DNA from: Styela clava
Taxonomy: Eukaryota > Chordata > Ascidiacea > Stolidobranchia > Styelidae
Length of the DNA: 64,000 nucleotides
Assembly (NCBI RefSeq): GCF_964204865.1
Contig: NC_135252.1
Location: 14,343,383-14,407,382, forward strand
Direction of reading: 5' to 3'
Under the pieces are notes generated by a model. The model made no database searches. It saw only the letters and a list, made by a program, of their open reading frames with translations, and was not told the origin of the DNA. The position numbers and the translations under genes were made by a program. The number at the start of each line of letters is the position of its first letter. Positions within the stretch are counted from its first letter, which is position 1. Positions 10,576 to 64,000 of this stretch are shown here, one piece after another.

Positions 10576-13500
10576 ATGTTATACGCTATAAAAATATTGT
10601 TTATACTTGGAGTATGTTTCTCTGTTTCGTGTTTGGCAAAGCCGGGTGAGTCATTTTAATATTATATATGTTAAAGGGCTCTCTAACGATGAAATTTTGA
10701 GAAAGAATATCATATAACGAGAAATTTACTTTAAATGTATATTCGATGGAGCGAGTCAAATGAGTTTTTTCATTTTTGACAATATACACTATTTGAAGAA
10801 AATATCTTTTATGTATACGGCTGTGGTTTTTAGTTGGGATTCCGCCAGTCCAGTTCAGGGGGTTCCACAATTTTCATATAAATCTGCAAGTTTCATTCAA
10901 AAATTCGAGTCTATATTATTATTAATATTAATACGTTAATACGTTTATTAAGTTTATAACCAAATACCTATTGGGCTTACCCTATTTTAAGCTTGCTATA
11001 CTTTAACGATAATTTTGTTTTGTCAGTATAAGGTTTGATTTCATGTATGTATTCGTGGTTAAAAATATCAGACAATAAAAGACAATTAAAGTGTGGAGCA
11101 GGGGTTTCTCAAGTCTCTGGAATGTTTCAAAAAGATTGAAAGCCATCGGTATACGGAATAGAAAACCGCAAATATTTATTTCCACTTACTTCGCATAAAA
11201 ATAAAAGTTTTGTTGCTCACTTCATATAGAGTAATAAATCAAATTGTTTTTCACCGAGAATGAAAACAATGCATTTTCATAGACTAGTAATAAAACTCAT
11301 TTCATTTAAGGAAAAGGAAAGAGTAAAGGAAAGGGAAAGCATTGTCTCTACAATCCATGTCCGCGAGGCAAAATATGCCACATAAACGGAAAATGCATCG
11401 GTTCGTATTGTTTGTGTTATAGTTTAGTTTGAATTCACAGGTTTAGAAACAAGCGAGACTTGTGATTTGTACAAATAAATTGACCTACATAACAAATGGA
11501 AGTAAATATCACTACAGATATATGTAATATATTCATTTAGTAAGTCTCATACATGGCACTTCTTAGTAAATTGTATACGATATTCTATAAAGCGATTGGG
11601 AACTTAGGATTTTGCTAAGACAATTAAAGCTAAGACACTTTCGGAAATTAGAGATTCTTTAACTGCTTTTTTAATTTGAGGTTTTAAAACCTGTTATTTT
11701 TTTTATAAAGCGGGATAACGGTATAGTTGTATATTAAATTTTACTTGATTTTTTTATAAATCGTTCCATATTCTGCAGGTAAACCTTTTCCTTTGCCGCA
11801 TCCTTGCGCAAACAAATACTGCCCACCTAAAAAAGTTTGCAAACTTGGGAAATGCGTTTGCAAAACAGGTGTGGAAATCGCTGGAAAATGCTTGCGTGAG
11901 TATTTTACAACTTAATTTTTAATGTGTTAATTTTACCTATTATAATTTCGAAAAAGATTTTTAAATTCAATCAAGACTGTATGGGCTGGATACCGAATTG
12001 AGATAATGTACATTGAAAAATTATATATACTGAAATTATTATGCGCTAAAATAATGTTTAAGCTGTTTTGATCGCGTTATTACTCATTTTAAGCCCATTT
12101 CTGATTAAAAAATCAAAAAATATCAATTTGTGTAGGGCAGCTATTAAGCTGGACTGATTAATCCTAAAATGCCCTTGGGCGACATGCGTGCATTCACGTG
12201 TTTGTTGTTGCATTATAAATGTCAAACCCAAGATATGAGTGAAAAAAAATAGATTTAGATTTAACAGCATACGTCATTAAAATCTTGATGATATTTACTC
12301 GTATAGGTCATACTACGAAATCATTTTTTTTAATCAAAGCTCGCTTATCATTAACATCTAACTATTATAACTAACTATTTATAACGTAAAATTTTGTCAC
12401 GACTGGAAGGATTAAGAATTCGCACTGGCTTTAGCTTCCAAACTTTGTCGTTACCTAATCTACGAGACTGTCTAATATAGGAAAATGTAGAACAAAAAGT
12501 CGTGTGAGAGTTAATCTCGTTTACACGATCCGATTTCCTAAAATAGGTGAGTTAAAATTCTGTTTAAAACAGGGAAATCGAAAATTAACGCACTTTATAG
12601 AGCCGTTCGTAAATATTGTAGTTAAAATTAACTAAAGGATCCATTATATTAAAAGTAAAAAGGAAAAAGTTGAACAATATTCTGTTTTGGCATAATTAGC
12701 AGTATAATAAGAAGAATAAAGTACTTTTAAGCAGAATGGCTAGCAAATAATCTGAATGCGGCAAACAATTAAAAAACCGAATCTGTACTGTTATCTGTTC
12801 TTTATTACAGAAATGCTTAAACTTCATACCCTGAAATTGTTTTGCACTGGTTTCATGATCACTTTGTTAGGTTTACTCTTAACAATCAAGCTTTATTGGC
12901 ATAACAACACTCATTGTTCGATATGATCAAATATTTGTGCCAACGATTAATATTAACATTTGTCTTGCCTGTCCATTTATTTTTATTCAATAGTTTTAAT
13001 TAAAGTCCATTTTTTGATGAACCCTTAAAATTGATTTTTAACGAACTAACAAACACAACCATTTTCAGTACTGCCAAGGTATTGCCCGTATGTTCCTTGT
13101 GGAAAAGGGAAAAAATGTTTCAATGGAAAGTGCATTGGTAAGTAGCGGTCATATCATGGCCCTTGTCATAGTTTCTAGGCATTACTGAAACTAGTTTTGA
13201 ATACTCCATGTTTTTGAAATATAAGTATTTGCTTAATTGAAAAAAATCTTTTTTGTTCTTGTGTCGGAGACTTGTATCTCTATAATCTTTACGAATTTTG
13301 TCTTTTCAAACATCTGAATTAAGACACGAACGAAACTCCTCCGTGTTTACCGTTTTCTATTAATAAATTTGGCCGTAAACAATATTGGTGTACAGTTGCA
13401 ACAACTAGAAACAATGATTCATCAAAAACACATCAGTATAGCAGACGAGGACACTTTTTCAAATGTACAGACATTTCATTGTAGGATATGCTTTTGAGCA

Positions 13501-16500
13501 AAATTGAAACGATATAAATTTAAAGTGTAATGCGAGAAAGCATATAAAATATTGAACTCTTGTCAGCTCTTTTGTTTTCAAAAGTACGAGTACACAAATT
13601 TTTCGCGAAAAAAATGTCCACTTTATTGAAAAAACTACAATTTATTACTGATTATTCTGTATATGCTGATTGCGAACCCAATTACAATATAACATTTAAC
13701 GTTTTGCCCAATGAAAGATCTATTCAATGGAAAACATGCAAGTTAAAGTGAAGTATATAAAAAGTCTGATGTCCTAGGCCTCTTTTCCAATAGCGGTGCG
13801 TTTTTATTCTACACGTGTTTCCTAATTGGTATTTTAATTTGTGTAGATAAATTATACGAAAAATCATCATTAATAAACTCACTAGCAAGTTAGCGTCAAA
13901 GCAAATTCTTTATAAGAATATTCAAACAGCATGCCGCAGGATTCTATATTTTTTATATCACCTCTATATATATTCATTAGTGTCCAAGTCTACTTTCATT
14001 TGTATCGAACAATTAATTGCTTACACTGTTAAGCAATTATAAAATGTATCTTATTTTAGCACTGAGTTTGCGGTGTCCGTTTATTCCCTGTGGAATTGGA
14101 AAAAGATGTTTGAATGGGAAATGCATACGTTAGTATGCATTATATATCTTTAATCTGTAATTATAAACTCCCTAGCAATTTATCGTCAAAGAAAATTCTT
14201 TATAAGAATATTCAAACAGCATGCCGCAAGATTTTATATTTTTTATATCACCTCTATGTATATTCATTAGTATCCAAGTCTACTTTCATTTGTATTGAAC
14301 AATTAATTGCTTACACTGTTAAGCAATTATAAAATGTATCTTATTTTAGCACTGAGTTTACGGTGTCCGTTTATTCCCTGTGGAATTGGAAAAAGATGTT
14401 CGAATGGGAAATGCATACGTTAGTATGCATAATATATCTTTCATTCGTAAATATATATTTGTAATCTTCCAAGGAAAATATTTTCTATTCCACCCAAATT
14501 TGACAATATTAGTTCATGGAAAAAGACAATATGATATTCGTTGAAGTGAGAAAAACTTATTCGCCCAATTACGAGATTTGTCGGAAGAAATCTTGCGTTC
14601 AATAACGTTTGCCAAACAGTTTGTTTGTTTTTGAATGGTATTTTATTGGACACGAAAAGGGAATATTGATAGTTTTTTTAAATTATTGTTGTTTTTGAAG
14701 TGATAGTTGTTTTGAAAAAAAAATTGATTTCCTTCTCAACCAATGTATCAATCGTATCAAGTTTTAGTTTGAGAGGAGATCGCTAAAAAGGCATTACGTT
14801 TATTTTTTAATGTCCCAAGTCCTGTGAAGCCTCTAAATTTCACAAACATTTCGCTGCTTTTTAAAAAAAATTTAAGTCTTAAACGCTTCCATCTTGCTTA
14901 CCTGTCCATATTTCAGCACACGGTGTTGTTATATTTCTTGAGACTTACCGTAAACCGTTACAAGTAGGTGATATTCGTGCTTGTTTATTTGAGCATTGCT
15001 CTTTTGTATTCAGATTCTGACTCGTGTTATATTCACGGATGCAACCCAGGCAAAGTTTGCAAAAACAATGTGTGCGTATGCAGAACTGGATATGACTACA
15101 ACGGAAGATGTTCTCGTGAGTGTATATCCCATAATAAAATCACATACTCCAATGTTGTCAAATACACCCAAATTGATTATTAAAATTGAAAAGTGACTAA
15201 TTCAATTCAAGTTACCAAAAATGCCCTTTTTCAATTTTCCTTAACTAAATTCTTAACTACTTAAGTAACTTTATTTACTTAATTCCATTGTATCAGATTT
15301 AAAGCACGATTCCAAATAAGTTACAATTGTCAGCTGTAAACCATATAGCACGATTTATTTCATATAGCTTTACCACATGTAACAACAAGATCTTTCATTG
15401 TATTTGCATCGAAACTTATGTTGCTTAGTAATTTTTGTGTAAGCGAGCTTATTGACGTATATATATATATATATATATATATTCCTCAAGCAGGCTTATG
15501 TTGTATGTCAGTAACCCAATTAAAGAAAATTGGAAATATCTGAACTATTCATGATATTTCTATAAAGTATTTTCAAATAAAATCCCCATATAATATTCTC
15601 ACTTAAGTCTTCAGAACCTCATCTTTATTCCAGGATGCCCAGCTCCGAAAATTCCCAAGCGATGCCCAACGAGTTGCCCGGCGACTTGTAAAAACCCAAA
15701 ACCTTCATATTGCACAAAAGAATGTGACCTCAGCAGAAAATGTGTATGTCCTCCCGGTTTGGTACAAATCAGCAAAACTAATGATAAATGCGTTCGACCA
15801 AGCAGTTGCAAAAGAAGTGAGTATAAGTAGTTTCGAAAAATTAATATTGGTTAATGTTTATAATGATATGATCTCAAATTAGTGGAAAATATTAGAAGCA
15901 TTCAAAATGTATCAGTATTCATTGCGAAAGGTTTTTTAGAAGATAATTGCATAATTCACTTAAATATTTTAAGATTGTGGCAACAAAATTTGCCCCGCCG
16001 GTTTCAAATGTCTTGCTGGATTATGTGCACGTCTTGTAGTTTCATTATGTCCATATAGCTGTCCGACAAATAAACACTGCGTTGGTGGACTTTGCGTATG
16101 CTTGCCTCCTTACTTCTCGTATAACGGACGGTGCATAAGTAAGTATTGTTTTGATTTTTGTTATGAGTTTTTTTGACTAGCGCAGCAGCAAACTAGCACA
16201 CAAAACTGGAAATAGATCGTATCCTTCCTTTCCTTGAATTTTGAAAGAAGTCTCATTAGTTGTTAGTTCCACAAAAGTAATATGAACCAGTCGCTATATT
16301 GTCGTTCATGTAGATTGTATAGATCCAAATATTATCACTGACAACGATTTATTTCATAACAACACAATTTGGTGTTATAGTACAATTATTGGAGAAAAAA
16401 AGTTCATGTTGAAACCAGATAGGCAAATAGTCAAAATATCTGCTCCTGAGAATATAATATAAATAAAATACATCAGAAAAAGACGGTCTATGTAACATAA

Positions 16501-19500
16501 TTTAGTTAAAATGAGGCGTAAATAGTTACTGTATTTTGTGTTTTGTGCAATTAAGTCATTTCGCATTGTTCTTAACAAATTTACTTTGTTCTCATCAGAA
16601 CCTTGTTGGAACAATCACTGTCCTCTGCACAGTTCTTGCTACAACGGAAAGTGTGTTTGTCACGCTGGATACATGAAACATGAAGGAAGATGTTATGGTA
16701 ATGAATGAAATTATCATTTATTTTTTATAGATAGTGGAAGAGTAAAGCAATTGTAAATTGATGATATTTAAACTTTCGTGGTTCCTAAGTTCATCGTTTT
16801 TGTTTTCGAAGAAATTCCCAGGACCAAGAAACTGTTTAATTTCACAACTGTACTCAATGATTCAATTTTTAAATTAAATTCAATTACCTCGTGATTTTTA
16901 TAAAACATGTATATCTAAATAATTTAATATTCTCACAATTAATAATATTCCGTTTCGCTTACAGCTATACCAACATGTGACAGAATCCATTGCCCATATG
17001 GATACTATTGCACAAAGGGAAAATGCATACGTATGTATAAGAATCATTTAAAAAAAGAACTTATCTCAAAATTTTGAAATTAATAACAAAATACTAGGTT
17101 TGACCAGGGCTAAGAACAAAGTTAAAACTATTTTTAATACATTATCTTGTTAACTGCTTGTATTAAACAACATATTTGTTTGTAAAAAACACTACATATC
17201 GTCACGCTAATAACCGAATTGCGTAAGTCATTTTTGACGATTTTGAGTTTTTTATAAAATAGGTATTTATGTAATGCTGCGCACCTGTCTGTTAACTCAG
17301 ATTTTATTTTAAGAATTCTAAAACCCATAAAAATGGAGATTTAGTATGACATGCACATTTGTGCAATTGTTTCGTCATAATGAATTATCATTGTTATCGC
17401 AGGACTATTGTGACGTCACAAAGGTAAAATAACCTCGGTGAAGTATTTTCGAATTTTTTCATCTTGGATTCTAGCTTAGCGCGTATTAATTTGAATTTAT
17501 ACTACAGTATAGGAAGACGTGCACTTGTGATATTCACTGTCCGAGTCCAATTCACCTTGGTTGGCTTTTATATTGGGTGCCATGTTTTTTTTTATTCTTT
17601 ATATTTAATCTTAGTCTTATTTCGGAGGGTGTGCAGAACGTGTTATAATGATGAAATATATATTTTTAAACATAAAAAGTAATGTAATTGAAACTGATTA
17701 GCTATTTTGGAGATTAGACATTGTAGATACTGAGAATTACATTTGTTTTTGGAATGTTTAGTTTCCAGGACTGGTTCATATAGTGAGGTTGACAAATTGC
17801 GTATGTCCCAAAGTCATAGACACATTTCTGCCTAAGTCACAGTGCGCCATTATGACGTCACCTAACTGCGTCATACAAATTAACTTAAATCCGGCCACGA
17901 TCAAAAAGTTCAACCATGGCAAATTATTGACTCTCAATGGCATAACAATATCATTAGGAAGTTTTTTACGTTTTTCTCAAAACTGCTAAAAATGACTTAC
18001 GCAATTCGGTTATTAGCGTGACGATATTTTTATTGTGAGAATTTGGTTACAACATCTTATTAATATTGGTAATACTGTAATATTATTTAACAGCAAGCTG
18101 TACAGCAGTCCACTGTCCACATGGGCATTCTTGCAAAAATGGAAAGTGCATACGTGAGTAAATTAATTATCAATTAGAACATTTGATGAGAAATGTATTT
18201 TCAGTTCATTTTTCATAATTTTTTTTAACTAATTCTACGTTTGCAAGCAAATGAAGTTGTTCAATTAATTTGTCAAATAATATAAGTGATTCTCCTAACC
18301 TACTGATATGGTTTCTATATTATTCAATCTGGCTAACTGTGACAAACAAAAAATTCACCGTGTTATGTCTACAATATGTTACATGATTGTGAAACATTTA
18401 TACTTTTACAGCGGTGAGTTGCGACACAATAAGCTGCCCACATGGACACATCTGTGAATATGGACATTGCAAACGTAAGTTTCTATTCCTATTGTTGTGT
18501 GTATATCCTGATGAGAAAACTTTAAATTAACCAATCCTAGTTTTAGTTATTAAATTCTACGTTTACTTGCAATTGAAGTTGTTCAGTTTATTTGACAAAT
18601 AATATGGGTGACTATGCCAAACTATTGGTAGGGTTTTATATTATTCTATTTGGACAGCCAAGACACACATAAAAATTCTCGTGTTGTGTCTACAAAAAGT
18701 TAAATGATTGTGAAACATTTATACTTTTCCAGCGGTAACTTGCGACACAATAAGCTGCCCACATGGACACATCTGTGAATATGGACAATGCAAACGTGAG
18801 TTTCGGTTCTTATCATTGCGTAACTTTTGATAAGAAAACTTAACCAAGTTAGATTAGACCAGGGCTCAGAACAAATTAAAACTATTTTCAGTACATTATT
18901 TTGATAACTGCTTGCATTGACAACATATTAGTATGTTGAAACACTGCATATTTTTATTGTGGGAATTTTCTTACTGCATCCTATTATCATTGTTGATACT
19001 ATAATATTATTTGACAGCAAGCTGCTCAGCAATTCACTGTTCATACGGGCATACTTGCAAAAATGGAAAGTGCATACGTGAGTAAATTAATCATCAATTA
19101 GAACATTTGATAAAAAATGTATTTTCAGTTGTAAACATTTTTTCTAATTTTGTTTATCTAATTTTACTTTTGCATGCAATTGAGGTTGTTCATTTTATTC
19201 GTCAAATAATATATATGAGTGATTATCCCAAACTACTGGTATGGTTTCTATATTATTCCACTTGGAGATCTATGGCAAACAAAAAGTTCACCGTGTTATG
19301 TCACAAAATGTTACATGATTGTGAAACATTTATACTTTTCCAGCGGTAACTTGCGACACAATAAGCTGTCCACATGGACACATCTGTGAATATGGACAAT
19401 GCAAACGTGAGTTTCGGTTCCTATCATTGCGTAACTCCTGATTAGAAAACTTTAAAAAAATTCAGTAGCACACGACAATCCGCCGTAATCGAGCTATAAT

Positions 19501-20584
19501 TTGCGCTTCAAAGCCACAAAACACTATTGGATAGCAAATTTATTTGTTGCTTTCATTCAATAAACAAACCTTGGTCAAATGCAGTTTAATAGTAATGGCG
19601 GCAAATAAAGAAATTTGATATTACAACAACAGAGGAATTCTTAACTTATAAATCAAGGATCGATTACCAGACACATTTGGAACATAATCTTGAGAAATTT
19701 TGCATTTTTATCTTTGTGGCGGAGAAAACTCTTACGAGGCAGCGGCCATTTAAAAAGGCATTAATGAATTTTAAAGTCATTTCTCATATTTTTTGTTATC
19801 TCAGATTGAGCAAAGTAATTTTAAATTATTTTGCGTGGTATTTCGACTGAAACGTTTTCACATCAATTTCTAGTTATTTCCGTTTACCAACAATTTTTAC
19901 CAAGTCTCGAATAAATCAATTTATCAGTTAGTGTTTGATTTGTTCAGGAATCTGTCCGAGCTTCAAGTTGTACACTGATTGCGCAACCAGTTGCCCGAAA
20001 ACTTGTGATAATCCTAATCCATCAATTTGTACGACTGTATGCCGACCAGGCGTACAGTGTGTTTGTCCTGATGATATGTATGAAAAGGGCGGTTCAACAG
20101 GAATTTGCGTTGCAAAGACCCAATGTAAAAGTAAGATTTTTGAAGATTTTAACATATATATAATTTTGACCTGGAATCAAAATCAATCATAATATAAAAA
20201 GAAAAATAGGTAATTTAGAAACCTATGGATGTTTCCCCGCGCATCGACATCCTTGTTAACTTCCGTAAAATTGGCTATCAGCAAGATGCAAAAAGTGACG
20301 TAACAATAGACGTTGTAGCAGCCGCTCAGATAATTTTGTCAGTCAGACAGATTTTTAGGCAACTCGCAAAACCATTCTTAAAAAACGCAACAAAATTTTG
20401 CAATCGTAAAGTATAGGAAGAATTTAACAGGGGTCAAAAGTCGTGGAAACATCTATTGTTTTGAATATGCAATTTTGTTTTTTCAGGATACTGTGGATGG
20501 AAATGGTGTCCCCCACACAGCATATGTGCTGGTGATCGTTGTATATGCACTGGTCAGGGACCACATTTTGGGTGTGAATATTGA
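10576..20584 (+). CDS. Secreted EGF-like/TIL repeat protein (18 exons)
   Basis: Exons: 10576-10645 (signal peptide, 23 codons), 11311-11400, 11779-11895, 13069-13137, 14060-14128, 14350-14418, 15014-15115, 15634-15816 (TIL), 15974-16138, 16599-16697, 16965-17030, 18094-18153, 18412-18474, 18733-18795, 19018-19077, 19344-19406, 19948-20130 (TIL) and 20487-20584 (stop TGA). All junctions are phase 1; the sum is 1689 nt, 562 aa. The 60-117-nt exons each code one small module, CxxxxCxxGxxCxxGxC, the longer ones adding CxCxxG...GxC as in EGF-like/EB modules. The TIL domains (about residues 196-256 and 470-530) have ten cysteines each and end in CVRPSSC and CVAKTQC. Exon 2 begins with a Gly/Lys-rich stretch. 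AATAAA lies at 20763-20768. TIL domains occur in serine-protease inhibitors and in mucin- or zonadhesin-type adhesion proteins; the role here is unknown. Confidence 0.75.
13868..14447 (+). repeat. 290-bp tandem duplication carrying one exon each
   Basis: Two copies, about 13868-14157 and 14158-14447, match nearly base for base. Each contains one 69-nt exon (14060-14128, 14350-14418) with its intron, acceptor and the unusual donor GTTAGT. The exons differ by a Leu/Ser change and a silent change. This is a recent unequal-crossover-type exon gain within the EGF/TIL gene. Confidence 0.9.
15458..15482. repeat. (TA)n microsatellite
   Basis: Uninterrupted TA run in an intron. Confidence 0.85.
17199..18024. 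mobile_element. TA-target DNA transposon / MITE, 826 bp
   Basis: Long terminal inverted repeats of about 49 bp, starting TCGTCACGCTAATAACCG at the left and ending CGGTTATTAGCGTGACGA at the right, flanked by TA (17197-17198) and TA (18025-18026). The related intron about 0.9 kb downstream has the same flanks joined with a single TA at 18949-18950, an empty-site equivalent. No transposase frame is seen, so it is probably a non-autonomous Tc1/mariner-like or pogo-like element. It lies within the intron 17031-18093. Confidence 0.9.
18094..19406 (+). repeat. Duplicated mini-module exon array
   Basis: Five consecutive 60-63-nt exons of the EGF/TIL gene are of two types: a PSC..HC.HGH.CKNGKC type (18094, 19018) and a PV.CDTISCPHGHIC type (18412, 18733, 19344). 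Introns are also similar (18180-18410 matches 19110-19340). The array grew by duplication of a two-exon unit plus an extra single exon. Confidence 0.8.
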
Positions 20585-20762: not shown

Positions 20763-20768
20763 AATAAA
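20763..20768 (+). promoter_or_regulatory. Poly(A) signal
   Basis: AATAAA about 180 nt after the stop of the 18-exon EGF/TIL gene. Confidence 0.55.
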
Positions 20769-21334: not shown

Positions 21335-21953
21335 TCAAAGTCGATGAAAACATCCTTCACAAGCGCACAGTTGTGGATCACAAGTACAATTCGTACAGCA
21401 GTCAGACCTGCTTGATGAGACTTTAGTGGAAGATAGAGAATGACAACCCTCAGATTTTGAGTTGCTAACTTTTGAACAACTGCATGACTTTGTAGCTGAA
21501 ACAAATACGAAGTAGTCACCATTGGATTTTTTTTTGTCAAAAAAAGTAACTAATTTTATGTGAATTATCATAACACAAAGGCCGAATAAAATTTGCAATT
21601 TTATGGAAATGAAAAAAAATCATGATATTCACAAGCTGACCCCTAATGTCTTTCAAGAGCCTACATTAATTGTTGGTTAACGCTACAAGTAAAATCTCAT
21701 CATCAATCTGCATGAGTGATACATGCGCGATATCTTCTTTCTCTTTCAATCCCACCGACGAAATATGAACATAATCCTATTCAGCTGAATGTTTTATAAA
21801 CTAAAAAGGCAAGAGATTACATCCAGTCATACTGAGAATTAAACACAACCATGCATTCATTACAGTTACACCAACTTACATACCTGCGCATTTGCAAACT
21901 TGGTATCTTTTTGTGCTTTCCTGTGGAATTTTTTTGTCCGACGAAGACTCCAT
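21335..21953 (-). CDS. Metallothionein-like protein (2 exons)
   Basis: Exon 1 is 21884-21953 (ATG at 21951-21953, donor GTATGT) and exon 2 is 21335-21495 (acceptor TTTCAG, stop TGA). Joined in phase 1 they give 76 aa. The first ~19 residues are Ser/Lys-rich with no cysteine. Twelve Cys follow in metal-thiolate spacing: CKC, CSC, a lone C, then CC..C.C, C.C..C near the C-terminus. There is no signal peptide, so it should be cytosolic. Metallothioneins bind Zn, Cu or Cd through such Cys-x-Cys clusters. Oddities are the Cys-free leader, the Ser-rich linker (~residues 31-50) between clusters, and two His in the C-terminal half. Twelve Cys is fewer than the 18-20 of many animal metallothioneins. 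I saw no perfect metal-response element upstream. Confidence 0.65.
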
Positions 21954-24750: not shown

Positions 24751-24990
24751 TAGATAGTGAAGTGAAAATGTGAGGATTTTGATATCCATACCCATGAGTG
24801 CAATGTCTTATGAACAAACCTATGACATCCAAGTCGTAAAAAAACAAATGCTATATTTATTTACTAAAAAATATTCCTCAACGAAGTTATAATTACCACC
24901 AGGTTTCAAGTGTGGTGGTATGTATGTCTGTTGTCATGAAATAGGGCATTGAATATGAATTCTGTGGTATCAACCCATTCACAATAAGTG

Positions 24991-25406
24991 GAAAACGTGA
25001 AGATGAATGTCAGCAGATCTTTCTGAACTAATTGCAATTATTAATAAAAAAAGAAATATCATATCATGTTTAAATAAACCATAAATTAGCTGAACTTATT
25101 TGCTCAAATAAATAATTTCACAAATTGCAGTATACCAAGACCTTTTGTAAAGTTATGTCATCACATTGTATTTACAGCCGTATACCAACAAAAAAAACTG
25201 AAAACGTGAAGATGAATGTCAGCAGATCTTTCTGAACTAATTGCAATTATTAATAAAAAAAGAAATATCATATCATGTTTAAATAAACCATAAATTAGCT
25301 GAACTTATTTGCTCAAATAAATAATTTCACAAATTGCAGTATACCAAGACCTTTTGTAAAGTTATGTCATCACATTGTATTTACAGCCGTATACCAACAA
25401 AAAAGT
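24991..25406. repeat. Near-perfect 209-bp tandem duplication
   Basis: The segment starting GAAAACGTGAAGATG at 24991 restarts at 25200 and reads identically, as far as I can see, to about 25406. It is non-coding. Confidence 0.9.
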
Positions 25407-46600: not shown

Positions 46601-47238
46601 AAATAATTTGCTAGCAAGAGTTCTCCGCACGTAAGCAAGCGAGCAATCATTCTCCGCACATAATAAACAAACAAAGATACTGTACGATCGCAACGGCTCG
46701 CAAAAACAAGCGCGCACATAATCTTGAATATATTGTGTTTCTTTACACTTCAAAGGTTAGTCTGGGCTTGTTTGGAAGGGACGTAATTCGTATTTCGAGA
46801 GTATTTGATGTCTCGTCCATCCCGCTTGTGCCTATCACAGCGCTATAAATTACAAATCTTTTTTTTTTAATTTCTTTTTAAATTTTATTCATATTCATCG
46901 CGACAGGGTAGATAAAAGGGCGCACGTATCTCGATCAACGGCTGGTATAAAGCGACACAAACAAGCTTTACAGCAAGATGCTAGTGAAGTTTCTCACACG
47001 TTTGAACAAAAAGTTATGACAATTTTAAGATGGGTCATACAAGAGGCTCATAAGCCGACGGGGGGGGGGATTAAGTTGCAATTGAGCAAATCTAATACTA
47101 TAATCGTTCATGTTTACAGAGAAAAAGTGCGGATGGTTTTCTGAATGTCCAGATAACTACTACTGCAAAAACAATTATTGCTATTGCAAAGATCCACACG
47201 GAAAAGGTTGCCAAGACATCATTATCATCGGAGATTAG
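31601..47238 (+). CDS. Large secreted TIL/EGF-like repeat protein (28 exons)
   Basis: Exons: 31601-31673 (signal peptide), 32017-32079, 32370-32471 (or from 32343), 32823-32930, [33869-33975 defective], 34800-34904, 35251-35421 (TIL), 36075-36137, 36554-36652, 36923-37105 (TIL), [37358-~37420 donor lost], 37620-37718, 37889-37987, 38628-38810 (TIL), 39085-39147, 39273-39371, 39682-39867 (TIL), 40334-40396, 40591-40689, 40869-41054 (TIL), 41307-41369, 43108-43206, 43435-43536, 44190-44372 (TIL), 44633-44695, 45518-45616, 45878-45982 and 47120-47238 (stop TAG). All junctions are phase 1; without the bracketed exons it gives 958 aa. The cassette TIL, 63-nt four-Cys exon, EGF-like exon(s) repeats six times. 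TIL domains carry ten Cys, at about residues 151-207, 262-322, 389-449, 504-565, 620-681 and 770-830. EGF-like exons read DPCxxxxC...C..GKCVC..G....G.KCV. Poly(A) AATAAA at 47640-47645. Extracellular; partner unknown. Confidence 0.78.
33869..33975 (+). pseudogene. Defective EGF-like exon with in-frame stop
   Basis: A good acceptor (TATTTAG) is followed in phase 1 by a sequence related to the functional exon 34800-34904 (shared SCDYGRVCKKGNC against DCDHGRVCKNGKC). The first cysteine is lost and the frame ends in TGA at 33973 with no donor. The surrounding ~0.9 kb also resembles the sequence around 34800, so this is a decayed tandem copy. If spliced in, it would truncate the protein after four or five exons. 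Confidence 0.7.
35634..35731. mobile_element. Fold-back MITE (family 1, copy 2), 98 bp
   Basis: Inverted ends (CTCCTGAAGTATGCGCACC and complement) with a perfect 8-bp target duplication CGAAACTT at 35626-35633 and 35732-35739. Left GGACCTCC and right (complement) GGTACTCC match the start of the 7752-7967 element. It is inside an intron of the 28-exon gene. Confidence 0.85.
37358..37473 (+). other. Four-Cys exon without its donor; possible alternative 3' end
   Basis: The first ~60 nt code YCYGIICPHGYKCYNRKCV, equivalent to the 63-nt exons of the other cassettes. Where those have a phase-1 donor after KxxG, this copy runs on with no good donor into about 18 mainly hydrophobic residues and a TGA at 37471-37473. 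Either it is skipped (neighbouring exons remain in frame), or it serves as an alternative last exon with a hydrophobic C-terminus. Confidence 0.5.
42537..42650. mobile_element. Fragment of fold-back family 1 (copy 3)
   Basis: Shares CTCC.GTAG.ATGTGTACC, the GGTTAGGGTTAGG core and the later AGTTCTATTA..AGTT segment with 7752-7967, but a complete inverted end pair is not evident. Confidence 0.55.
42663..42735. repeat. GC-rich palindromic mini-array
   Basis: Several spaced copies of GATGGGCCGCGGCCC-type palindromes (variants with GAGG, GTGG) in an otherwise AT-rich intron; a related motif is at about 42445-42465. Confidence 0.75.
43695..43775. repeat. Short tandem duplication
   Basis: AATTATAATGTAAGTCTTAG followed by GTTACGTATG occurs twice, about 49 nt apart, in an intron of the 28-exon gene. 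Confidence 0.75.
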
Positions 47239-53185: not shown

Positions 53186-56100
53186 TTACGGACAATAAAT
53201 TCCAACGCACACACAATTTCCCGAAACGCATTTCCATCCTGGTTTACAACGAGGGCGACATTGTTCTGTAGAAAGAATGAAAATTAATATCAGTATTGGT
53301 TAGTCGATATTTCAAAAAGGGGATTATTTCGTTTCAGAAAATTGAGAAACAAGAGGAATATTAAGTAATCATTGCTAATTAAAGCAGGTCGTGAATTGCA
53401 CCAACTCGAGAGTACTTTATATTTGAGTTTGAATTTCATATTATTTTACCTACGGTGTGGTCGAGGGCAGTTTTGTAGCAAAGTACATCTAGTGTCATGT
53501 TGACTCACTTGGACGAATCCCTTTCTACACTCGCATTTTTTTATTCGGATCGCAGGGGGCACAAATCTCGGGATTTGGGTTTTGGCAAGTGCCCACACAA
53601 AACGAAGCACATGTGGTAGGTTTCTCACCATACCCACATTCTAATATTCAATTTATAAGCAAATTCCATTATATGAATATTTTCTATACGACGAGAAAAA
53701 TGAATAAAGCAAATTTATTTATTGGTTTGAACAGGCAAATGCTTTTCTAATAGTTTATTTGTTCATGTCAAAGGAGAAAGACAAAATGCAGTTTAAATGC
53801 ATAGAAAGTCATACCTCAATAAAATGAAGCAAGTAATTAGAGGATATAACTCAGAAATTTAGTGTTTTTACAGATATCAAGTATTAAAATAAATCTCATT
53901 TGAAATTATAACATGACAGGTATGCTCAATGTCTAAATTCATTTTCCCTTATGACTCATACAATACCGTAATTTTAAAATTGATGGAATTTAATTCAAAA
54001 TATAAAACCTATAAATGAAAAAGAAACATCTGTCACAGCAAACAAAATATAGATACTTATTCACAGGACATTCTAAAATGGTACAGGTCAAAACTCATTA
54101 ATCTGAACCAATGATGTTAGAAAGAATGAATCATCGTGGAATTTTTAACAATAAAAATGTCTGCTTAGGGTGTTGTTGTACTTTATATGTATGCAAAATA
54201 TGGTACTAAAACGAATGTTCAATTTAATTAATATTCTTTGCTAGAAAATATTCTAGAAACCTACTATTAGGACATTGGTATCTTTTCACGCATCCACCAT
54301 TGTGTTCCAGAAACCCATTAGGACAAACGCAGTACCTGTCCAAATTACATTCCTCTGTACAAACTTGCGGGAATGGTTTTTCACATGTCAATGGACAGTT
54401 CGAAGGACATGCTTTGAATATTTTACCGGGAGGACAAGCTGAAAATTAAAATTATCGAAGGTGATAATGATAACAGGTTATCATCGCTAAATGAAAAACT
54501 AATATAACGCAGCGACATCACGTATTCGTTTTGGAAAATTGTGTTAGAAACAATGAATTCTATACAAAAATAAGTTTCGAGTTAAATTCAGGAATCACGA
54601 TGGAATTAAACAGACAAGCATACTCGTAATTGACGGAGAAATATTAGTTTGATATTCCAGAGAAATATGCTGTTGGGTTATGACTGTTATTGACGATATT
54701 GAATTATATATAAAATATATAACGCAAAATTTACTTGTATTGGAAATGATTTGCCCACAGGGATATGCAACGTCACAGGAGTCGTGTTCTTATATATTAG
54801 CTTCGAAACTACAAATTAGCTTTATTTATTTATTTTTGTTTAGTTTATAAAATAAAGAGGCTTCTCTTCATTTCAACGGTACCTGCGGAATCATGTTTAC
54901 TTGGAATAACAAAAATATTATCAACTTGAATATGATTCAGAGTTATTTGATAAAACCTCAAATCGGGTTAAACGCAGGTTATAATTAAAAAGTTGTGATC
55001 TCAACAGTATGATTAAATCCTTGTTGTTACTAATTATAGAACTGAAACATTCCCGATATACTTCTACACTTATAAGGCATTCGGAAATATTCAATTTTTA
55101 TACTGTTGTTATACATAAAAGTGCTCATGAAGATTTAGATTAATCAAGCACATGCAAAAAGGTAACTAAGTGATTACTCACGTCTTTCCAAATCATTCGA
55201 GTTTTGGAAGGGGTAATGTTACGTATGGCCATAATGTGTTGATATATTTTCACTTGACAATGACTATTGAAAAAATAAATTGTAAAAGATTAATCATCCT
55301 TACTGACGCATCTTCCATTGTAAAAGTCTCCTCTTCTGCAAACGCATCTGCCATCTTCACATACTTGACCAGGCGCACATGATGATGAACACGTGGACAC
55401 TTGAAATAAAATTACTCTTTTACTCACTGACACATTTGTTTCCTCTATACCCTTTTTCACACACACATTTTGCATTTTTACAGATACTGTTAGGGGGACA
55501 ATATAATGGGCAGGTTTTATCTGAAAATCCAGAAGAAAAAAAAACCGAAAAACAATGATAAACGTATATATCTTTGATATATATTCATTTTTTGACCAAT
55601 CTCATGCTGTATTATTCAACTGAGTTCAATAATTTTTAAACTTAAATCAAAAAGCCTTTATCTTTTTTCATTTGACAAGTTAAGTCTAATTTCTAATTGT
55701 TTTACCTCAATTCTAACTTAGACCCCAAAACGACCCAAATATGTAGGTCTAATTTGCAATTCTGTTATGCCTGCTGAAAGTTTTTGTAAAACTGTTTTGG
55801 TATATCAGCGTTTTGATGTTATAATTATAACTAGAGAGATTGGTTTTCCTGGAGAGTATAAAAGTCACTTACATGACACGCAAACTCCATTTTTTCTGTA
55901 ATGTCCTGGTAGACATTCGCATATCCCATCTGGGCAATGTTCGTTCGGGGGACATCGTCTACGACATTGACACTTTCCGTCAATACAATCACTTCCAGGC
56001 GGACAATTTTTTTTACACACTAAAAAAATATGACATCAAGAAAAATTAAAATTATGTATTGATTGTGATTCAGAGTCATTCATATTCAATGAATAGTTTG

Positions 56101-59100
56101 CCGTTTGTCGTTGAATGATCAACGTTACCTCATAGTAATAATTCAGTTTTCACAGTCAATTTGAAACTCTCCATAGTGTGGCGTCATTAACTTTTATTCA
56201 TAGATATTTATGAGCATGAACCACAACTTTTATGACATTGTAGAAAATTGAATTGTTAACTGGTAAGTTTCAGGTTTATATTATTTTACTTACGTTGCGG
56301 TCGAGGGCAGTTTTGTAGCAAAGTACATCTAGTGTCATGTTGGCTAACTTGGACGAATCCCTTTCTACACTCGCATTTTCTATTCGGATCGCAGGTGGGG
56401 GCACAAATCTCGGGATTTGGGTTTTTGCAAGTGCCCACACAAAACGAAGCACATGCGGTAGGTTTCTCACCATACCCACATTCTGAAAATCATAATAGTC
56501 AATTCATAGGTAAATTCAATTATATGAATCTTTTCTATACGACGAAAAAAATGAATGAAGCATATGGATTTATTACTATTTATTAGTGTTTAATTTAACT
56601 AATATTTTTTGCTAGAAAATAAACTATAAACCTACTATTAGGACATTGGTCACTTTTCACGCATCCACCATTGTGTTCCAGAAACCCATCAGGACAAACA
56701 CAGTACCTGTCCAAATTACATTCCTTGGTACAAACTTGCGGGAATGGTTTTTCACATGTCAATGGACAGTTCGAAGGACATGCTTTGAATATTTTACCGG
56801 GAGGACAAGCTGAAAATTAAAATAATCGTGGGTGATAATGATAACAGATTATCATCGCTAAATGAGAAACTAATATAACACAGCGACATCACGTATTCGT
56901 TTTGGAAAATAGCGTTAGAAACAATGAATTCAATACAAAAATAAGTTTCGAGGTAAATTCACGAATCACGATGGAATCAAACAGACAAGAATACTCGTAA
57001 TTGACGGAGAAATATTAATTTGATATTCCAGAAAAATATATTGTTGGGTTATGACTGTTATTGACGATATTGAATTATATATAAAATATATAACGCAAAA
57101 TTTACTTGTATTGGAAATGATTTGCCCACAGGGATATGCAACGTCACAGGAGTCGTGTTCCTATATATTAGCTTCGAAACTACAAATTAGCTTTATTTAT
57201 TCATTTTTGTTTAGTTTTATAACATAAAGAGGCTTTTCTTCATTTCAACGGTACCTGCGGAATCATGTTTACTTGGAATACCAAAAATATTATCAACTTG
57301 AATATGATTCAGAGTTATTTGATAAAACCTCAAATCGGGTTAAACGCAGGTTATAATTAAAAAGTTGTGATCTCAACAGTATGATTAAATCATTGTTGTT
57401 ACTAATTATAGAACTGAAACATTCCCGATATACTTCTACACTTATCAGGTATTCGGAAATATTCAATTTTTATACTGTTGTTATACATAAAAGTGCTCAT
57501 GAAGATTTAGATTAATCAAGCACATGCAAAAAGGTAACTAAGTGATTACTCACGTCTTTCCAAATCATTTGAGTTTTGGAAGGGGTAATGTTACGTATGG
57601 CCATAATGTGTTGATATATTTTCACTTGACAATGACTATTGAAAAAATAAATTGTAAAAGATTAATTATCCTTACTGACGCATCTTCCATTGTAAAAGTC
57701 TCCTCTTCTGCAAACGCATCTGCCATCTTCACATACTTGACCAGGCGCACATGATGATGAACACGTGGACACTTGAAATAAAATTACTCTTTTACTCACT
57801 GACACATTTGTTTCCTCTATACCCTTTTTCACACACATTTTGCATTTTTACAGATACTGTTAGGGGGACTATATAATGGGCAGGTTTATCTGAAAATTCA
57901 GAAAAAAAAAACGAAAAACAATCATAAACGTATATATCTTTGATATATATTCATTTTTCGACCAATCTCATGCTGTATTATTCAACTGAATTCAATAATT
58001 TTTAAACTTGAATCAAAAAGCCTTTATCTTTTTTCATTTGACAAGTTAAGTCTAATTTCTAATTGTTTTACCTCAATTCTAACTTAGACCTCAAAACGAC
58101 CTAATTATGTAGGTCTAATATGCAACTCTGTTATGCCTGCTGAAAGTTTTTGTAACACTGTTTTGGTATATCAGCGTTTTGATGTTATAATTATAACTAG
58201 CAAGTTTGGTTTTCCTGGAGAGTATAAAAGCCACTTACATGACACGCAAACTCCCTTTTTTCTGTAATGTCCTGGTAGACATTCGCATATCCCATCTGGG
58301 CAATGTTCGTTCGGGGGACATCTTCTACGACATTGACACCTTCCGTCAATACAATCACTTCCAGGCGGACAATTTTTTTTACACACTGAAAAAAAATTTA
58401 ACATCAAGAAAAATTAAAATATGTATTGATTGTGATTCAGAGTCATTCATATTCAATGAATAGTTTGCCGTTTGTCGTTGAATGATCAACGTTACCTCAT
58501 AGTAATAATTCAGTTTTCACAGTCAATTTGAAACTTTCCATAGTGTGGCGTCATTAACTTCCATTCATAGTTATTTATGAGCCTGAACTACAACTTTTAT
58601 GACATTGCAGAAAATTGAATCGTTAACTGGTAAGTTTCAAGTTTATAATATTTTACTTACGTTGCGGCCGAGGGCAGTTTTGTAGCAAAGTACATCTAGT
58701 GTCATGTTGGCTAACTTGGACGAATCCCTTTCTACACTCGCATTTTCTATTCGGATCGCAGGTGGGGGCACAAATCTCGGGATTTGGGTTTTTGCAAGTG
58801 CCCACACAAAACGAAGCACATGCGGTAGGTTTCTCACCATACCCACATTCTGAAAATCATAATAGTCAATTCATAGGTAAATTCAATTATATGAATCTTT
58901 TCTATACGACGAAAAAAATGAATGAAGCATATGGATTTATTACTATTTATTAGTGTTTAATTTAACTAATATTTTTTGCTAGAAAATAAACTATAAACCT
59001 ACTATTAGGACATTGGTCACTTTTCACGCATCCACCATTGTGTTCCAGAAACCCATCAGGACAAACACAGTACCTGTCCAAATTACATTCCTTGGTACAA

Positions 59101-62100
59101 ACTTGCGGGAATGGTTTTTCACATGTCAATGGACAGTTCGAAGGACATGCTTTGAATATTTTACCGGGAGGACAAGCTGAAAATTAAAATAATCGTGGGT
59201 GATAATGATAACAGATTATCATCGCTAAATGAGAAACTAATATAACACAGCGACATCACGTATTCGTTTTGGAAAATAGTGTTAGAAACAATGAATTCAA
59301 TACAAAAATGGGTTTCGAGGTAAATTCACGAATCACGATGAATGACAAGCATACTCGTAATTGACGGAGAAATACTAGTTTGAAAATTTGATATTTTGAT
59401 ATTCCAGAGAAATATGTTGTTGGGTTATGACTTTTATTGACGATATTGTTGTGTATATTTTCAATGAAATATATAACGCAAAATTTACTTCTATTGGAAA
59501 TGATTTGCCCGCAGGGATAGGCAACGTCACAGGAGTCGTGTTCTTATATATTAGCTTCGAAACTACAAATTAGCTTTATTCATTCACTTTTGTTCAGTTT
59601 ATGACATATTGAGAGGTTTTTATTCATTTCAAAGATACCTGCGGAATCATGTTTACTTGGAATAACAAAAATATTATTAACTTAAATATGATTCAGAGTT
59701 ATTTGATAAAACCTCAAATCGGTTTAAACGCAAGTTATAATTAAAAAGTTGTGGTCTCCACAGTATGATTAAATCATGGTTGTTACTAATTATAGAACTG
59801 AAACATTCCCGATATACTTCTACACTTATCAGGTATTCGAAAATATTCAATTTTTATACTGTTATACATAAAAGTACGCATGAAGATTTAGATTAATCAA
59901 GCACATGCAAAAAGATAACTAAGTGATTACTCACGTCTTTCTAAATAATTTGAGTTTTGGAAGGGGTAATGTTACGTATGGCCATAATGTGTTGATATAT
60001 TTTCACTTGACAATGATTATTGAAAAAATAAATTGTAAAAGATTAATCATCCTTACTGACGCATCTTCCATTGTAAAAGTCTCCTCTTCTGCAAACGCAT
60101 CTGCCATCTTCACATACTTGACCAGTCGCACATGATGATGAACACGTGGACACTTGAAATAAAATTACTCTTTTACTCACTGACATATTTGTTTCCTCTA
60201 TACCCTTTTTCACACACACATTTTTCATTTTTACAGATACTGTTAGGGGGACAATATATTGGGCAGGTTTTATCTGAAAATCCAGAAAAAAAATGAAAAA
60301 CAATCATATATCGTTGATATAAATGCATTTTTCGACCAATCTCATGCTGTATTATTCAACTGAATTCAATAATTTTCAAACATGAGTCAAAAAGCCTTTA
60401 TCTTTATTTCATTTGACAAGTTAAGTCTAATTTCTAATTGTTTTACCTCAATTATAACTTAGAACCCAAAACGACCCAAATATGTAGGTCTAATATGCAA
60501 CTCTGTTATGCCTGCTGAAAGTTTTTTGTAACACTGTTTTGGTATATCAGCGTTTTGATGTTATAATTATAACTAGCAAGTTTGGTTTTCCTGGAGAGTA
60601 TAAAAGCCACTTACATGACACGCAAACTCCCTTTTTTCTGTAATGTCCTGGTAGACATTCGCATATCCCATCTGGGCAATGTTCGTTCGGGGGACATCGT
60701 CTACGACATTGACACCTTCCGTCAATACAATCACTTCCAGGCGGACAATTTTTTTTACACACTGAAAAAAATTTAACATCAAGAAAAATTAAAATATGTA
60801 TTGATTGTGATTCAGAGTCATTCATATTCAATGAATAGTTTGCCGTTTGTCGTTGAATGATCAACGTTACCTCATAGTGATAATTCAGTTTTCACAGTCA
60901 ATTTGAAACTTTCCATAGTGTCATTAACTTCCATTCATAGTTATTTATGAGCCTGAACCACAACTTTTATGACATTGCAGAAAATTGAATCGTTAACTGG
61001 TAAGTTTCAAGTTTATAATATTTTACTTACGTTGCGGCCGAGGGCAGTTTTGTAGCAAAGTACATCTAGTGTCATGTTGGCTAACTTGGACGAATCCCTT
61101 TCTACACTCGCATTTTCTATTCGGATCGCAGGCGGGGGCACAAATCTCGGGATTTGGGTTTTTGCAAGTGCCCACACAAAACGAAGCACATGCGGTAGGT
61201 TTCTCACCATACCCACATTCTGAAAATCATAATAGTCAATTTATAAGTAAATTCAATTATATGAATCTTTTCTATACGACGCTAAAAATGGATAAAGCAA
61301 ATGGATTTATTAGTTTGGACTGGAAAATGCTTTTCTAATAGCTCATTTGTTCATGTTAAATGAGATAGACAAATGCAGTTAAAATACATACTAAGCCATA
61401 CTTCAATAAAATTAAGCAAGTGATTAGAGGATATAACTAAGAAATTTAGTGTTTTTACAGATATCAAGTATCATAGAATTTTCACCAATAAAAATGTCTG
61501 CTTAGGGTGTTGTTGTACATTTTATGTATCCAAAATATGTATTAAAACGATTGTTTAATTTATTTAATATTCTTTGCTAGAACATAATCTATGAACCTAC
61601 TAGTAGGACATTGGTGTCGTTTCACGCATCCACCATTGTGTTCCAGCAGCCCATCAGGACACACACAATACCTGTCCAATTTACATTCCTTGGTACAAGC
61701 TTGCGGAAATGGTTTTTCACATGTCGGTGGACAGTTCGAACATGGTTTGAATATTTTACCGGGAGGACAAGCTGGAAATCAAAACATTCGTAGGTGATAA
61801 TGATAACAGATTATTATCGTTAAATGAGAAACTAATATAACGCAGCGACATCACGTATTCGTTTTGGAAAATTGTGTTAGAAACAATAAATTTCATAGAA
61901 AAAAAAGTTTCGAGGTAAATTCACGAATCACGATGGAATCAAACAGACAAGCATACTCGTAATTGACGGAGAAATATTAGTTTGAAAACTTGATATTTTG
62001 ATATTCCAGAGGAATATGTTGTTGGGTTATGACTTTTATTGACGATATTGATGTATATATTTTCAATGAAATATATAACGCGAAATTTACTTGTATTAGA

Positions 62101-63649
62101 AATGATTTGCCCGCAGGGATAGACAACGTCACAGAAGTCGTGTTCTTATATATATATTAGCAAAGATACCTGCGGAATCATGTTTACTTGAAATAACAAA
62201 AATATTATCAACTTAAATATGATTCAGAGGTATTTGATAAAACCTCAAATCGGGTTAAACGCAGGTTATAATTAAAAAGTTGCGATCTATACAGTAGGTT
62301 CAAATCATGGTTGTTACTAATTATAGAACTGAAACATTTCTGATATACTTCTACATTTATCAGGTATTCGAAAATATTCAATTTTTATACTGTTATACAT
62401 AAAAGTGCACATGGACATTTAGATTAATCGAGCACATGCAAAAAGGTAACTAAGTTATTACTCAAGTCTTTCCAAATCATTTGAGTTTTGGAAGGGGTAA
62501 TGTTACGTATGGCCATAATGTGTTGATATATTTTCACTTTACAATAACTATTGAAAAATTAAATTGTAAAATATTAATGATTCTTACTGACGCATCTTCC
62601 ATTGTAAAAGTCTCCTCTTCTGCAAACGCATCTACCATCTTTACATACTTGACCAGACGCACATGGTGATGAACACGTATTTGGATCTGTAAACGAACGG
62701 AAGTCAAGCAATTTTGCACTTGTTCACTTAAATCAAATAAAAGCAAATTCAGAATAACAATAAAACTATATACAGCAAAAATGAAACTCTTCGACTATAA
62801 CATTAATATCTCATAGACTTACCAACACATATTCCATCAATACATATCTGTCCTACAATGCATGTAACTGCTGCACATGAAGTACTTCTTCCTGTATATG
62901 GAGTGTTGTCTTGTTTATTCAAAAGTAATACTGTGCAACGGTTTTATCGCGTGCGGAAAGTGCATTTATATTATCAAAATTATCTTTAACAAAATTACAT
63001 ATTTTAACAAATTTCAAACATGAGCATTGTATATCTATATATGTTGGTTTTTCTGGTGATTACTGTATCCTAGCCTATAACATAACCTAAAGGATGTTTA
63101 CGCCTGAACTGCTATCTGGAGATTCTAATTATAATAGTACCCAAAACATGCTCTTTATGAGAATTCACTGAAAAGACATTCATTTGTTATTGTATAATGA
63201 AATTGTTTAAAATTCGAGAATATGCAATTGTATACGTACGGACGCATTCGCCAAACCGACAGTCTTCCGTATGTTTGCACGGGGGCCAGCATTCACCAGG
63301 TGGTATACCGATGGCTATAACTGAAAAAAGATTTTAAAAAGTAATAAATAAACATGATATTTTCTTTCTTTCGTATTTTTACGTTATTTTGAAATAAGAA
63401 ATCACTTAGTATGCAGATGTACCCTTATACGCGCTTGAACAGCACACACATAATTTATTACGTAAATTTTTTATCATTTCTATCATTTTTGACAAAGTAT
63501 ACAATTTTTAAATATATTGTTAACCAGTACTGTGAAAATTGCCTAACTTGACAGTTTTCCACACCTATACAGATATAACTTACGATCGATACATCTTCCG
63601 TCAACACATTGTTTATGAGGTGGACAACCAGTAACCTCACACGGGGGAA
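53186..63649 (-). CDS. TIL/EGF-like tandem-repeat secreted protein, 3' part (5' end outside window)
   Basis: Exons in transcription order: 63584-63649, 63240-63320, 62823-62891, 62588-62686, 61601-61771 (TIL), 61031-61219 (TIL), 60615-60761, 60181-60273, 60057-60152, 59003-59176 (TIL), 58661-58849 (TIL), 58239-58385, 57800-57889, 57676-57771, 56636-56809 (TIL), 56294-56482 (TIL), 55873-56019, 55428-55520, 55304-55399, 54265-54438 (TIL), [53454-53640 defective TIL] and 53186-53265 (terminal, stop TAA at 53186-53188). All internal junctions are phase 1. Two TIL types alternate: a 189-nt type (CGYGEKP..) and a 171-174-nt type (CPPGKIFK..). The 147-nt exon codes two fused mini-modules with 12 Cys. 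No signal peptide is visible because the first exon seen already starts mid-frame. It resembles the other two TIL/EGF genes but is on the opposite strand. The protein is extracellular if it has a signal peptide. Confidence 0.75.
53454..53640 (-). pseudogene. Defective terminal TIL exon
   Basis: Same exon type as 56294-56482, 58661-58849 and 61031-61219. It has a 3-nt deletion (loss of Thr before a Cys) and one extra A in an A run (7 against a 6-nt mixed stretch), which shifts the frame to a TAG soon after. The acceptor (ATATTAG) and donor (GTAGGT) are also weaker than in the other copies. Skipping it leaves the terminal exon in frame. Confidence 0.75.
54265..61219 (-). repeat. Three tandem ~2.37-kb multi-exon blocks
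   Basis: Each block holds, in transcription order, the 189-nt TIL, 147-nt, 93-nt, 96-nt and 174-nt TIL exons with all introns. TIL exon ends at 56294, 58661 and 61031 give periods of 2367 and 2370. Introns are as similar as exons (same order of motifs, scattered single substitutions). Partial related copies lie on both sides (61601-62686 and 53454-53640). Confidence 0.92.
55400..55427 (-). other. Apparent 28-nt intron (also at 57772-57799 and 60153-60180)
   Basis: Between the 93-nt and 96-nt exons the sequence GTGAGTAAAAGAGTAA is followed by a T-rich run ending TTTCAAG. Reading through gives an immediate TAA. Excising exactly 28 nt restores the phase-1 frame into the next EGF-like exon. The same length occurs in all three blocks. 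Confidence 0.6.
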
Positions 63650-64000
63650 CTGAAAAATAATTTTGGTAGAAAATTATTCTCAAAAAAACGCTGTTTATGC
63701 CTGAATATTTTAGTATATAGTAGACACAATATTCTCATCATATCAGCAAGCATAGCCAATGAAATGGTCGGAAGGTATTCAGACAAAATAAATTCATTTC
63801 AATTATATTGCGTTCTCAGATCTCAATTAACACCATTGTAATGTTTTTTATTACAATAATATTATGGGATGTATTTCAAAGCTATCACTGTTTTCTGACA
63901 TATTTTATTCTATGATCAGTAATGTTTTCACTGTTTCAAATAACGTGTTGTGAATATGAAAAAGATAATATATCAATACACTACTTGTCTCTTTAAATGA
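63650..64000. other. Edge of window, probably intron
   Basis: No exon recognised; probably an intron of the minus-strand TIL/EGF gene that continues beyond the window. Confidence 0.4.

Follow-up and report, generated by a model that had tools for sequence, protein, structure and literature searches.

A 64,000-nucleotide stretch of the genome of the ascidian Styela clava (hereafter the window; contig NC_135252.1, positions 14,343,383 to 14,407,382) carries three genes, A, B and C, that appear to form a small Styela family of probably secreted modular proteins. Their TIL modules would be carried on a chain of short EGF-like modules with six cysteines (6-Cys) and of truncated half-modules with four (4-Cys). 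The cluster has grown by tandem duplication of multi-exon blocks, single exons have decayed, and on the whole the exons are maintained for their protein sequence by purifying selection. The most likely function, ahead of a structural role, would be multi-headed protease inhibition, a tentative assignment read from the sequence that could well prove wrong.

An earlier note on this DNA had proposed three genes, two on the plus and one on the minus strand, and these were recovered:

10576-20584 (+): gene A, 18 exons, 562 amino acids; database name 'tenascin-like'
31601-47238 (+): gene B, 26 exons, 945 amino acids; database name 'cell death abnormality protein 1-like'
53186 to beyond 64000 (-): gene C, 20 exons in the window; database name 'zonadhesin-like' (P0002)

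Genes A, B and C correspond to the predicted S. clava proteins P0011, P0001 and P0002, whose names were assigned automatically. The models hold 64 exons, comprising 2 leader-like, 15 intact TIL (2, 6 and 7 in A, B and C) and 47 other cysteine-rich exons, 3 terminal exons included; the note had counted at least 15 and some 45. About a quarter of the modules in the three genes are TIL. Internal exons all have a length that is a multiple of three, phase 1-1 and GT/AG ends, and each gene terminates in a half-module exon carrying the stop codon.

Exons were searched as AG-exon-GT cassettes in phase 1-1 with at least four cysteines, keeping only plus-strand candidates in the gene A and B regions and only minus-strand candidates in the gene C region. 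The models were then corrected manually. Candidates 33869-33955 and 54028-54093 were excluded because their splice sites scored poorly, and 37358-37459 because its donor side is broken. A phase-1 scan of the window returned 15 TIL, 23 6-Cys and 26 4-Cys exons (64 in total; the agreement with the model total is a coincidence, the scan omitting the two leaders and adding at least two candidates outside the models), compared with 0 TIL, 0 6-Cys and 2 4-Cys exons summed over 20 dinucleotide shuffles. Because the scan was restricted to phase 1-1 exons, the independent checks of exon symmetry are two: the junctions of the models are shared by predicted S. clava proteins (matches above 85% identity), and scans in phase 0 or 2 gave 7 and 10 such exons against 64 in phase 1, numbers that may include shifted-end versions of the same modules. 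The symmetric phase-1 exons described in the note were thus confirmed. An Rfam search of the window gave nothing at gathering scores.

Module analysis agreed with TIL, EGF-like and 4-Cys modules being the main building material. TIL modules are disulfide-rich units of about 55-60 residues whose ten cysteines are kept in 15 of 15 cases; the available text of PMC5691223 gives TIL five disulfides and states that the P1 residue sets the specificity of canonical inhibitors. Domains were scanned (E up to 0.001) in the database proteins P0001, P0002, P0005, P0011, P0015 and P0003 rather than in the window models. Pfam TIL (PF01826, cut-off 24.5 bits), the check suggested in the note, scored 104 bits for P0001, 102.2 for P0002, 76.1 for P0005 and 44.7 for P0011, all above the cut-off. 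Among single-TIL frames, three of the four scanned passed it, and one of the type that we call TILb reached 24.0 bits, slightly under. A whole-genome Pfam TIL search, independent of introns, had 12 of the 15 TIL exons among the matches listed, each of them above the cut-off; those not listed are the three of type TILb.

The cysteines of the 6-Cys exons show an EGF-like spacing. A match to teneurin-2 chains, in their EGF region (E 1.3e-6), was obtained for P0005, which scores 27.8 bits with Pfam EGF_TEN (cut-off 65, not reached); both of two single 6-Cys exons scanned lay under the EGF-type cut-offs. Pfam EB gave 28.3 bits (cut-off 24.3) on one double 4C+6C exon and 16.9 on another, and P0005 had a sub-threshold likeness to the FIMAC domain of complement factor I (25 bits, cut-off 27). 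The 4-Cys exons stop about where 6-Cys exons continue, and the exon at 32823 can be read as either, depending on donor choice, which suggests that 4-Cys exons are 6-Cys exons shortened through an earlier donor. Altogether, the family proteins are very rich in cysteine (17-18%).

Growth by block duplication is visible as repeats. Gene C contains units about 2.4-2.6 kb apart, whose identity is 91-99% over the best-preserved stretch and 60-75% where they have diverged most; in gene B, a trio of TIL, 4-Cys and 6-Cys exons is repeated with variations; and in gene A, single 4-Cys exons are repeated together with intron sequence. The note had attributed growth to phase-1 exon shuffling. Growth itself stands, by tandem duplication, while import of modules from elsewhere was not seen, no test for import having been made. 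The gene C features, apart from its TIL exons, are:

54216-62690 (-): four tandem multi-exon units, spacing 2366-2602 bp (repeat families D1-D8)
~64072-64150 (-; L009:155-233): leader exon past the right window edge, read in the flanking L009
63584-63649, 63240-63314, 62823-62891 (-): 4-Cys exons, from exon models
62588-62686, 60181-60273, 60057-60152, 57676-57771, 55428-55520, 55304-55399 (-): 6-Cys exons, from exon models
60615-60761, 58239-58385, 55873-56019 (-): double 4C+6C exons, from exon models
57800-57892 (-; approximate ends): decayed copy of the second 6-Cys exon, with small deletions and one Cys lost, from alignment
53452-53641 (-; approximate ends): relic TILb exon of unit 4, frame-shifted, two overlapping matches
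53186-53265 (-): terminal exon with stop, fitting the end of P0002

Exon loss is seen in the frame-shifted TIL copy and in decay of two of the three copies of the second 6-Cys exon: besides the copy listed above, that at 60181-60273 lacks its last Cys, and that at 55428-55520 is intact. Gene C and P0002 align with 788 identical, 3 different and 91 gap columns, the two being equal except for omitted exons and the leader. P0002 omits the exons at 60181 and 55428 (31 residues each), a homologous exon being present in P0005. Several stages of modular protein growth are displayed at this one locus: young multi-exon duplications of 2.4 kb, a frame-lost TIL exon, decaying and omitted 6-Cys exons and seemingly cut-short 4-Cys exons. 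Tunicates being the sister group of vertebrates, it would offer a setting there for testing how exon symmetry and copy number relate to protein function.

Predicted exon sets also differ at gene A, whose features other than TIL exons are as follows:

10576-10645 (+): exon 1, signal-peptide-like (judged by eye), phase-1 end; same N-terminus in P0011
11311-11400, 13069-13137, 14060-14128, 14350-14418, 16965-17030 (+): 4-Cys exons, from exon models
18094-18153, 18412-18474, 18733-18795, 19018-19077, 19344-19406 (+): further 4-Cys exons, from exon models
11779-11895, 15014-15115, 16599-16697 (+): 6-Cys exons, from exon models
15974-16138 (+): double 4C+6C exon, from exon model
13862-14441 (+): tandem duplication, two copies (94%) of a 290-bp block with a 4-Cys exon; both exons missing from P0011
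18024-19432 (+): array of duplicated 4-Cys exons (repeat families D9, D13), differently arranged in P0011
20487-20584 (+): terminal exon with stop, fitting the end of P0011

Aligned end to end, gene A and P0011 ('tenascin-like isoform X8') have 499 identical, 17 different and 47 gap columns. Two 23-residue modules, encoded by the exons at 14060 and 14350, are missing from P0011, either through skipping or because they are absent from its source sequence; the frame is kept here as it is in P0002, in line with the note's proposal that exons can be gained or lost in frame. Modules of the form PVSC..HC number three in P0011 against one such exon in the window, which implies that the two stem from different exon arrays, unless one is misassembled.

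These differences bear on variable recognition, in which alternative splicing and exon copy-number variation would give each animal a different protein set. The reading also draws on the isoform X8 label, on the 29 sequences in the 90% cluster of P0011 and on phase-1 exons that can be skipped in frame, but we consider it unlikely. The isoform names probably come from automatic annotation, and the P0011 array could hold assembly errors. Gene B and P0001 align with 908 identical, 21 different and 31 gap columns; beyond the leader, 13 residues differ and none at a presumed P1, as counted by eye on the alignment. Taken further, this reading would describe a chordate in which secreted, multi-headed inhibitors or binders, built from in-frame exon cassettes, form a repertoire that varies from one animal to the next: tandem block duplication and loss would make exon copy number differ between individuals, and alternative splicing would draw differing sets of heads from each array. 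We find this distinctly unlikely.

In all six gene C unit pairs, exons changed less than introns. Fisher tests, made on three of these pairs, gave a significant difference for two: units 2 and 3, with 6/696 exon and 77/1659 intron sites changed (p = 5.6e-7), and units 3 and 4, with 13/456 and 148/1190 (p = 1.3e-10). Over nine exon pairs, gene C and its paralogue on contig C14 differ at proportions of 0.268 synonymous (pS) and 0.103 nonsynonymous (pN) sites, a ratio of nonsynonymous to synonymous change (dN/dS) of 0.33. For gene B, all six repeat pairs that exceeded 60% amino-acid identity had pN below pS, several being near synonymous saturation. Relaxed or positive selection over whole exons was rejected on these pN/pS and exon/intron comparisons. 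Purifying selection of this kind argues against hypervariable recognition, and the note's suggestion that the architecture serves variable recognition is accordingly disfavored.

We then considered what the TIL modules might do, beginning from the residue at the presumed P1 place:

15634-15816 (+): gene A, Lys; Pfam TIL 33.4 bits on the open frame
19948-20130 (+): gene A, Thr; listed by the genome Pfam TIL search
35251-35421 (+): gene B, Lys; listed by the genome search
36923-37105 (+): gene B, Lys; Pfam 33.7 bits
38628-38810 (+): gene B, Lys; Pfam 34 bits; PDB 1hx2 (BSTI), E 1.4e-7
39682-39867 (+): gene B, Asp; listed by the genome search
40869-41054 (+): gene B, Thr; listed by the genome search
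44190-44372 (+): gene B, Thr; listed by the genome search
61601-61771 (-): gene C unit 1, TILa, Lys; listed by the genome search
61031-61219 (-): gene C unit 1, TILb, Pro; Pfam 24.0 bits, slightly below the 24.5 cut-off
59003-59176 (-): gene C unit 2, TILa, Lys; listed by the genome search
58661-58849 (-): gene C unit 2, TILb, Pro; P1 by position
56636-56809 (-): gene C unit 3, TILa, Lys; listed by the genome search
56294-56482 (-): gene C unit 3, TILb, Pro; P1 by position
54265-54438 (-): gene C unit 4, TILa, Glu; listed by the genome search

Lysine occupies the presumed P1 in seven modules, Thr in three, Pro in three, and Asp and Glu in one each. The Lys lies between Cys5 and Cys6 and is preceded by Thr in six of the seven. 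For one typical module, the best-scoring solved structure is 1hx2, named BSTI, which we take to be a toad trypsin inhibitor. Of the 14 modules of P0003, a TIL array on contig C17, 12 have K, R, L, F, V or I at the corresponding position. Suggestively, the presumed P1 of close TILa copies is Lys in units 1-3 and differs in unit 4 (Glu) and in the C14 gene (Leu). Hydrophobic leader-like exons, judged by eye and not with a predictor, open genes A and B, and the gene C leader lies just past the window. From these features we infer secreted proteins. Each may be a rod whose several TIL heads act as canonical inhibitors of serine proteases, whether in the blood, in the tunic or around the gametes. 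The Lys heads would block trypsin-like enzymes, and heads with Thr, Asp, Glu or Pro could be spacers or be aimed at other targets. If the heads do inhibit proteases, the genes would make up an uncharacterized inhibitor family in an invasive ascidian.

Several points weigh against protease inhibition. The P1 place between Cys5 and Cys6 is assigned by position, presumably as in Ascaris-type inhibitors, and 8 of 15 modules carry Thr, Pro, Asp or Glu there, residues that are unusual for strong inhibitors. Ordered by entropy, the P1 column comes no higher than 9th of 58; the site is therefore not specially diversified, and P1 as a hypervariable site was rejected. AlphaFold models were of low confidence (mean predicted local distance difference test score 58.3 for a TIL exon, 15 rows, and 49.1 for P0011, 5 rows) and give no support. 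Constraint was weak and non-significant between gene C units 1 and 2 (29/693 exon and 95/1598 intron sites, p = 0.09). In some individual exon pairs that carry one to three changes, dN exceeds dS. Judged by the P1 residue, the protease inhibition named in the note is plausible in 7 of 15 modules.

The main rival reading, which the eight modules without a usual P1 residue favor, is a structural matrix, tunic, mucus or adhesive protein, in which TIL and EGF-like modules would be disulfide-stabilized blocks and inhibition vestigial. Clothes-moth and caddisfly 'zonadhesin-like' proteins, which we take to be silk components, are among the database matches. According to the accessible part of PMC8621496, the flatworm adhesive protein ap1 also joins TIL and EGF modules, though inside a vWD-C8-TIL block. 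A structural role is a real possibility, if on balance a doubtful one, as no vWD, C8 or lectin domain was found in P0001, P0002, P0005 or P0011 (E up to 0.001).

An egg-coat or sperm-binding protein resembling the Halocynthia EGF-repeat vitelline-coat protein HrVC70 would be a further candidate, HrVC70 and HaVC80 being ascidian proteins with repeated EGF modules and a duplicated module (PMC9265791, in the part available). We regard it as very unlikely: a ZP domain is present in HrVC120, from which HrVC70 derives (same source), none was found in the four family proteins scanned, and the available part of that article makes no mention of TIL for HrVC70. On domains, egg-coat identity was rejected for P0001, P0002, P0005 and P0011.

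The automatic names zonadhesin, tenascin and CED-1 are misleading for genes C, A and B. Mammalian zonadhesin has TIL modules, and tenascin and CED-1 have EGF-like modules; TIL or EGF-like modules are common to these and the S. clava proteins, whereas MAM, vWD, FN3, fibrinogen and EMI were not found in the latter. Zonadhesin was rejected on the absence of vWD and MAM from P0002 and P0005, tenascin because the P0011 scan gives TIL only, with no FN3 or fibrinogen, and CED-1/MEGF10 because the P0001 scan gives TIL only, with no EMI. For an insect gene, the accessible text of PMC9210311 likewise warns that the name 'zonadhesin-like' may mislead on function. A search of the literature on S. clava and ascidians returned no study of the function of genes A, B and C. 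The "undescribed system" of the note holds in that no characterized gene with this layout was found, but all three genes were already predicted in databases under automatic names.

Among known systems, TIL serine-protease inhibitors (Ascaris-type; PF01826) share the ten-cysteine module and, in 7 of 15 S. clava modules, Lys at the presumed P1; the S. clava TILs differ in being many per long protein and mixed with EGF-like and 4-Cys modules. Arthropod 'zonadhesin-like' arrays (ticks, spiders, moths, caddisflies) have tandem TIL in common at 26-29% identity to genes B or C, and the arrays P0004, P0006 and P0016 look TIL-type by eye, without the 4-Cys/6-Cys mosaic. P0015 (620 amino acids, 2127-base contig, source 'lgn') intermixes TIL and 6-Cys EGF-like modules at 32% identity over 55% of gene C, with some longer EGF modules and another order. 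A TIL and EGF-like mosaic occurs in five of the nine match proteins with sequences examined, namely P0015 and four S. clava proteins. Because the protein search finds only relatives of similar length that share exact words, absence of the mosaic elsewhere is weak evidence. Ordinary in principle, with phase-1 modules multiplying by duplication, the family represents a lineage-restricted variant among extracellular modular proteins of known kind.

Within S. clava, the genome TIL search (376.6-Mb, 379-contig assembly; 150 of 192 candidates scored) found at least 99 Pfam TIL places. The gene C paralogue lies on contig C14 at 11011535-11020288 (protein P0005), which brings the family to at least four genes. 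Of 20 10-kb TIL stretches hand-picked, not drawn at random, from the other places and scanned with a module scan that misses some modules, only L014, the C14 gene, had the TIL, 4-Cys and 6-Cys mosaic, none being seen in the other 19. L024 and L032 gave 6-Cys pattern matches, but in seemingly longer, different domains. The C14 paralogue has its double 4C+6C exon duplicated (L014:6849-6998 and 7470-7619), and P0005 shows a single copy. Other TIL clusters lie at C16:19673162-19804051, C17:7644219-7662610, C18:13427998-13462767 and C4:19546419-19589942; the C17 cluster is mainly TIL in the 20 kb examined, and in L030 on C18, TIL alternates with six-Cys exons of a different kind.

The remaining features of gene B are:

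31601-31673 (+): candidate first exon, signal-peptide-like (hydrophobic leader by eye), phase-1 end
32017-32079, 32823-32891, 36075-36137, 39085-39147, 40334-40396, 41307-41369, 44633-44695 (+): 4-Cys exons, from exon models
32370-32471, 34800-34904, 36554-36652, 37620-37718, 37889-37987, 39273-39371 (+): 6-Cys exons, from exon models
40591-40689, 43108-43206, 43435-43536, 45518-45616, 45878-45982 (+): further 6-Cys exons, from exon models
37358-37459 (+): degenerate 4-Cys exon, donor side lost, looks broken; missing from P0001, outside the model
47120-47238 (+): terminal exon with stop, Cys-rich, fitting P0001

P0001 offers an alternative start, MLEATGSEVG, coded at window 29666 and with no evident signal peptide, and it uses the longer six-Cys form of exon 32823-32891, to about 32938.

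Around the three genes, two related EGF-like exons of another gene (ACxSYxxxACGxxS...RETxxxxC) lie at 1037-1186 and about 5164-5330 (+), one of which was scanned and gave a weak Pfam match; a similar exon is found at L011:7407-7646 (-). Left of the window, L011:3261-6528 (-) holds seven EGF-like exons, of the calcium-binding type by eye, the one scanned matching Pfam EGF_3 and EGF_CA. An open frame at 21338-21619 (-) contains a cysteine-dense, metallothionein-like stretch (KSCSCSK...CCTNCTCDPQLCACEGC) with no convincing Pfam match. Between genes A and B, a frame at 28020-28307 (+) that looked C-type-lectin-like by eye was set aside, as it had no Pfam or PDB match, and a 209-bp sequence at 24980-25397 is present in two tandem copies of 98% identity.

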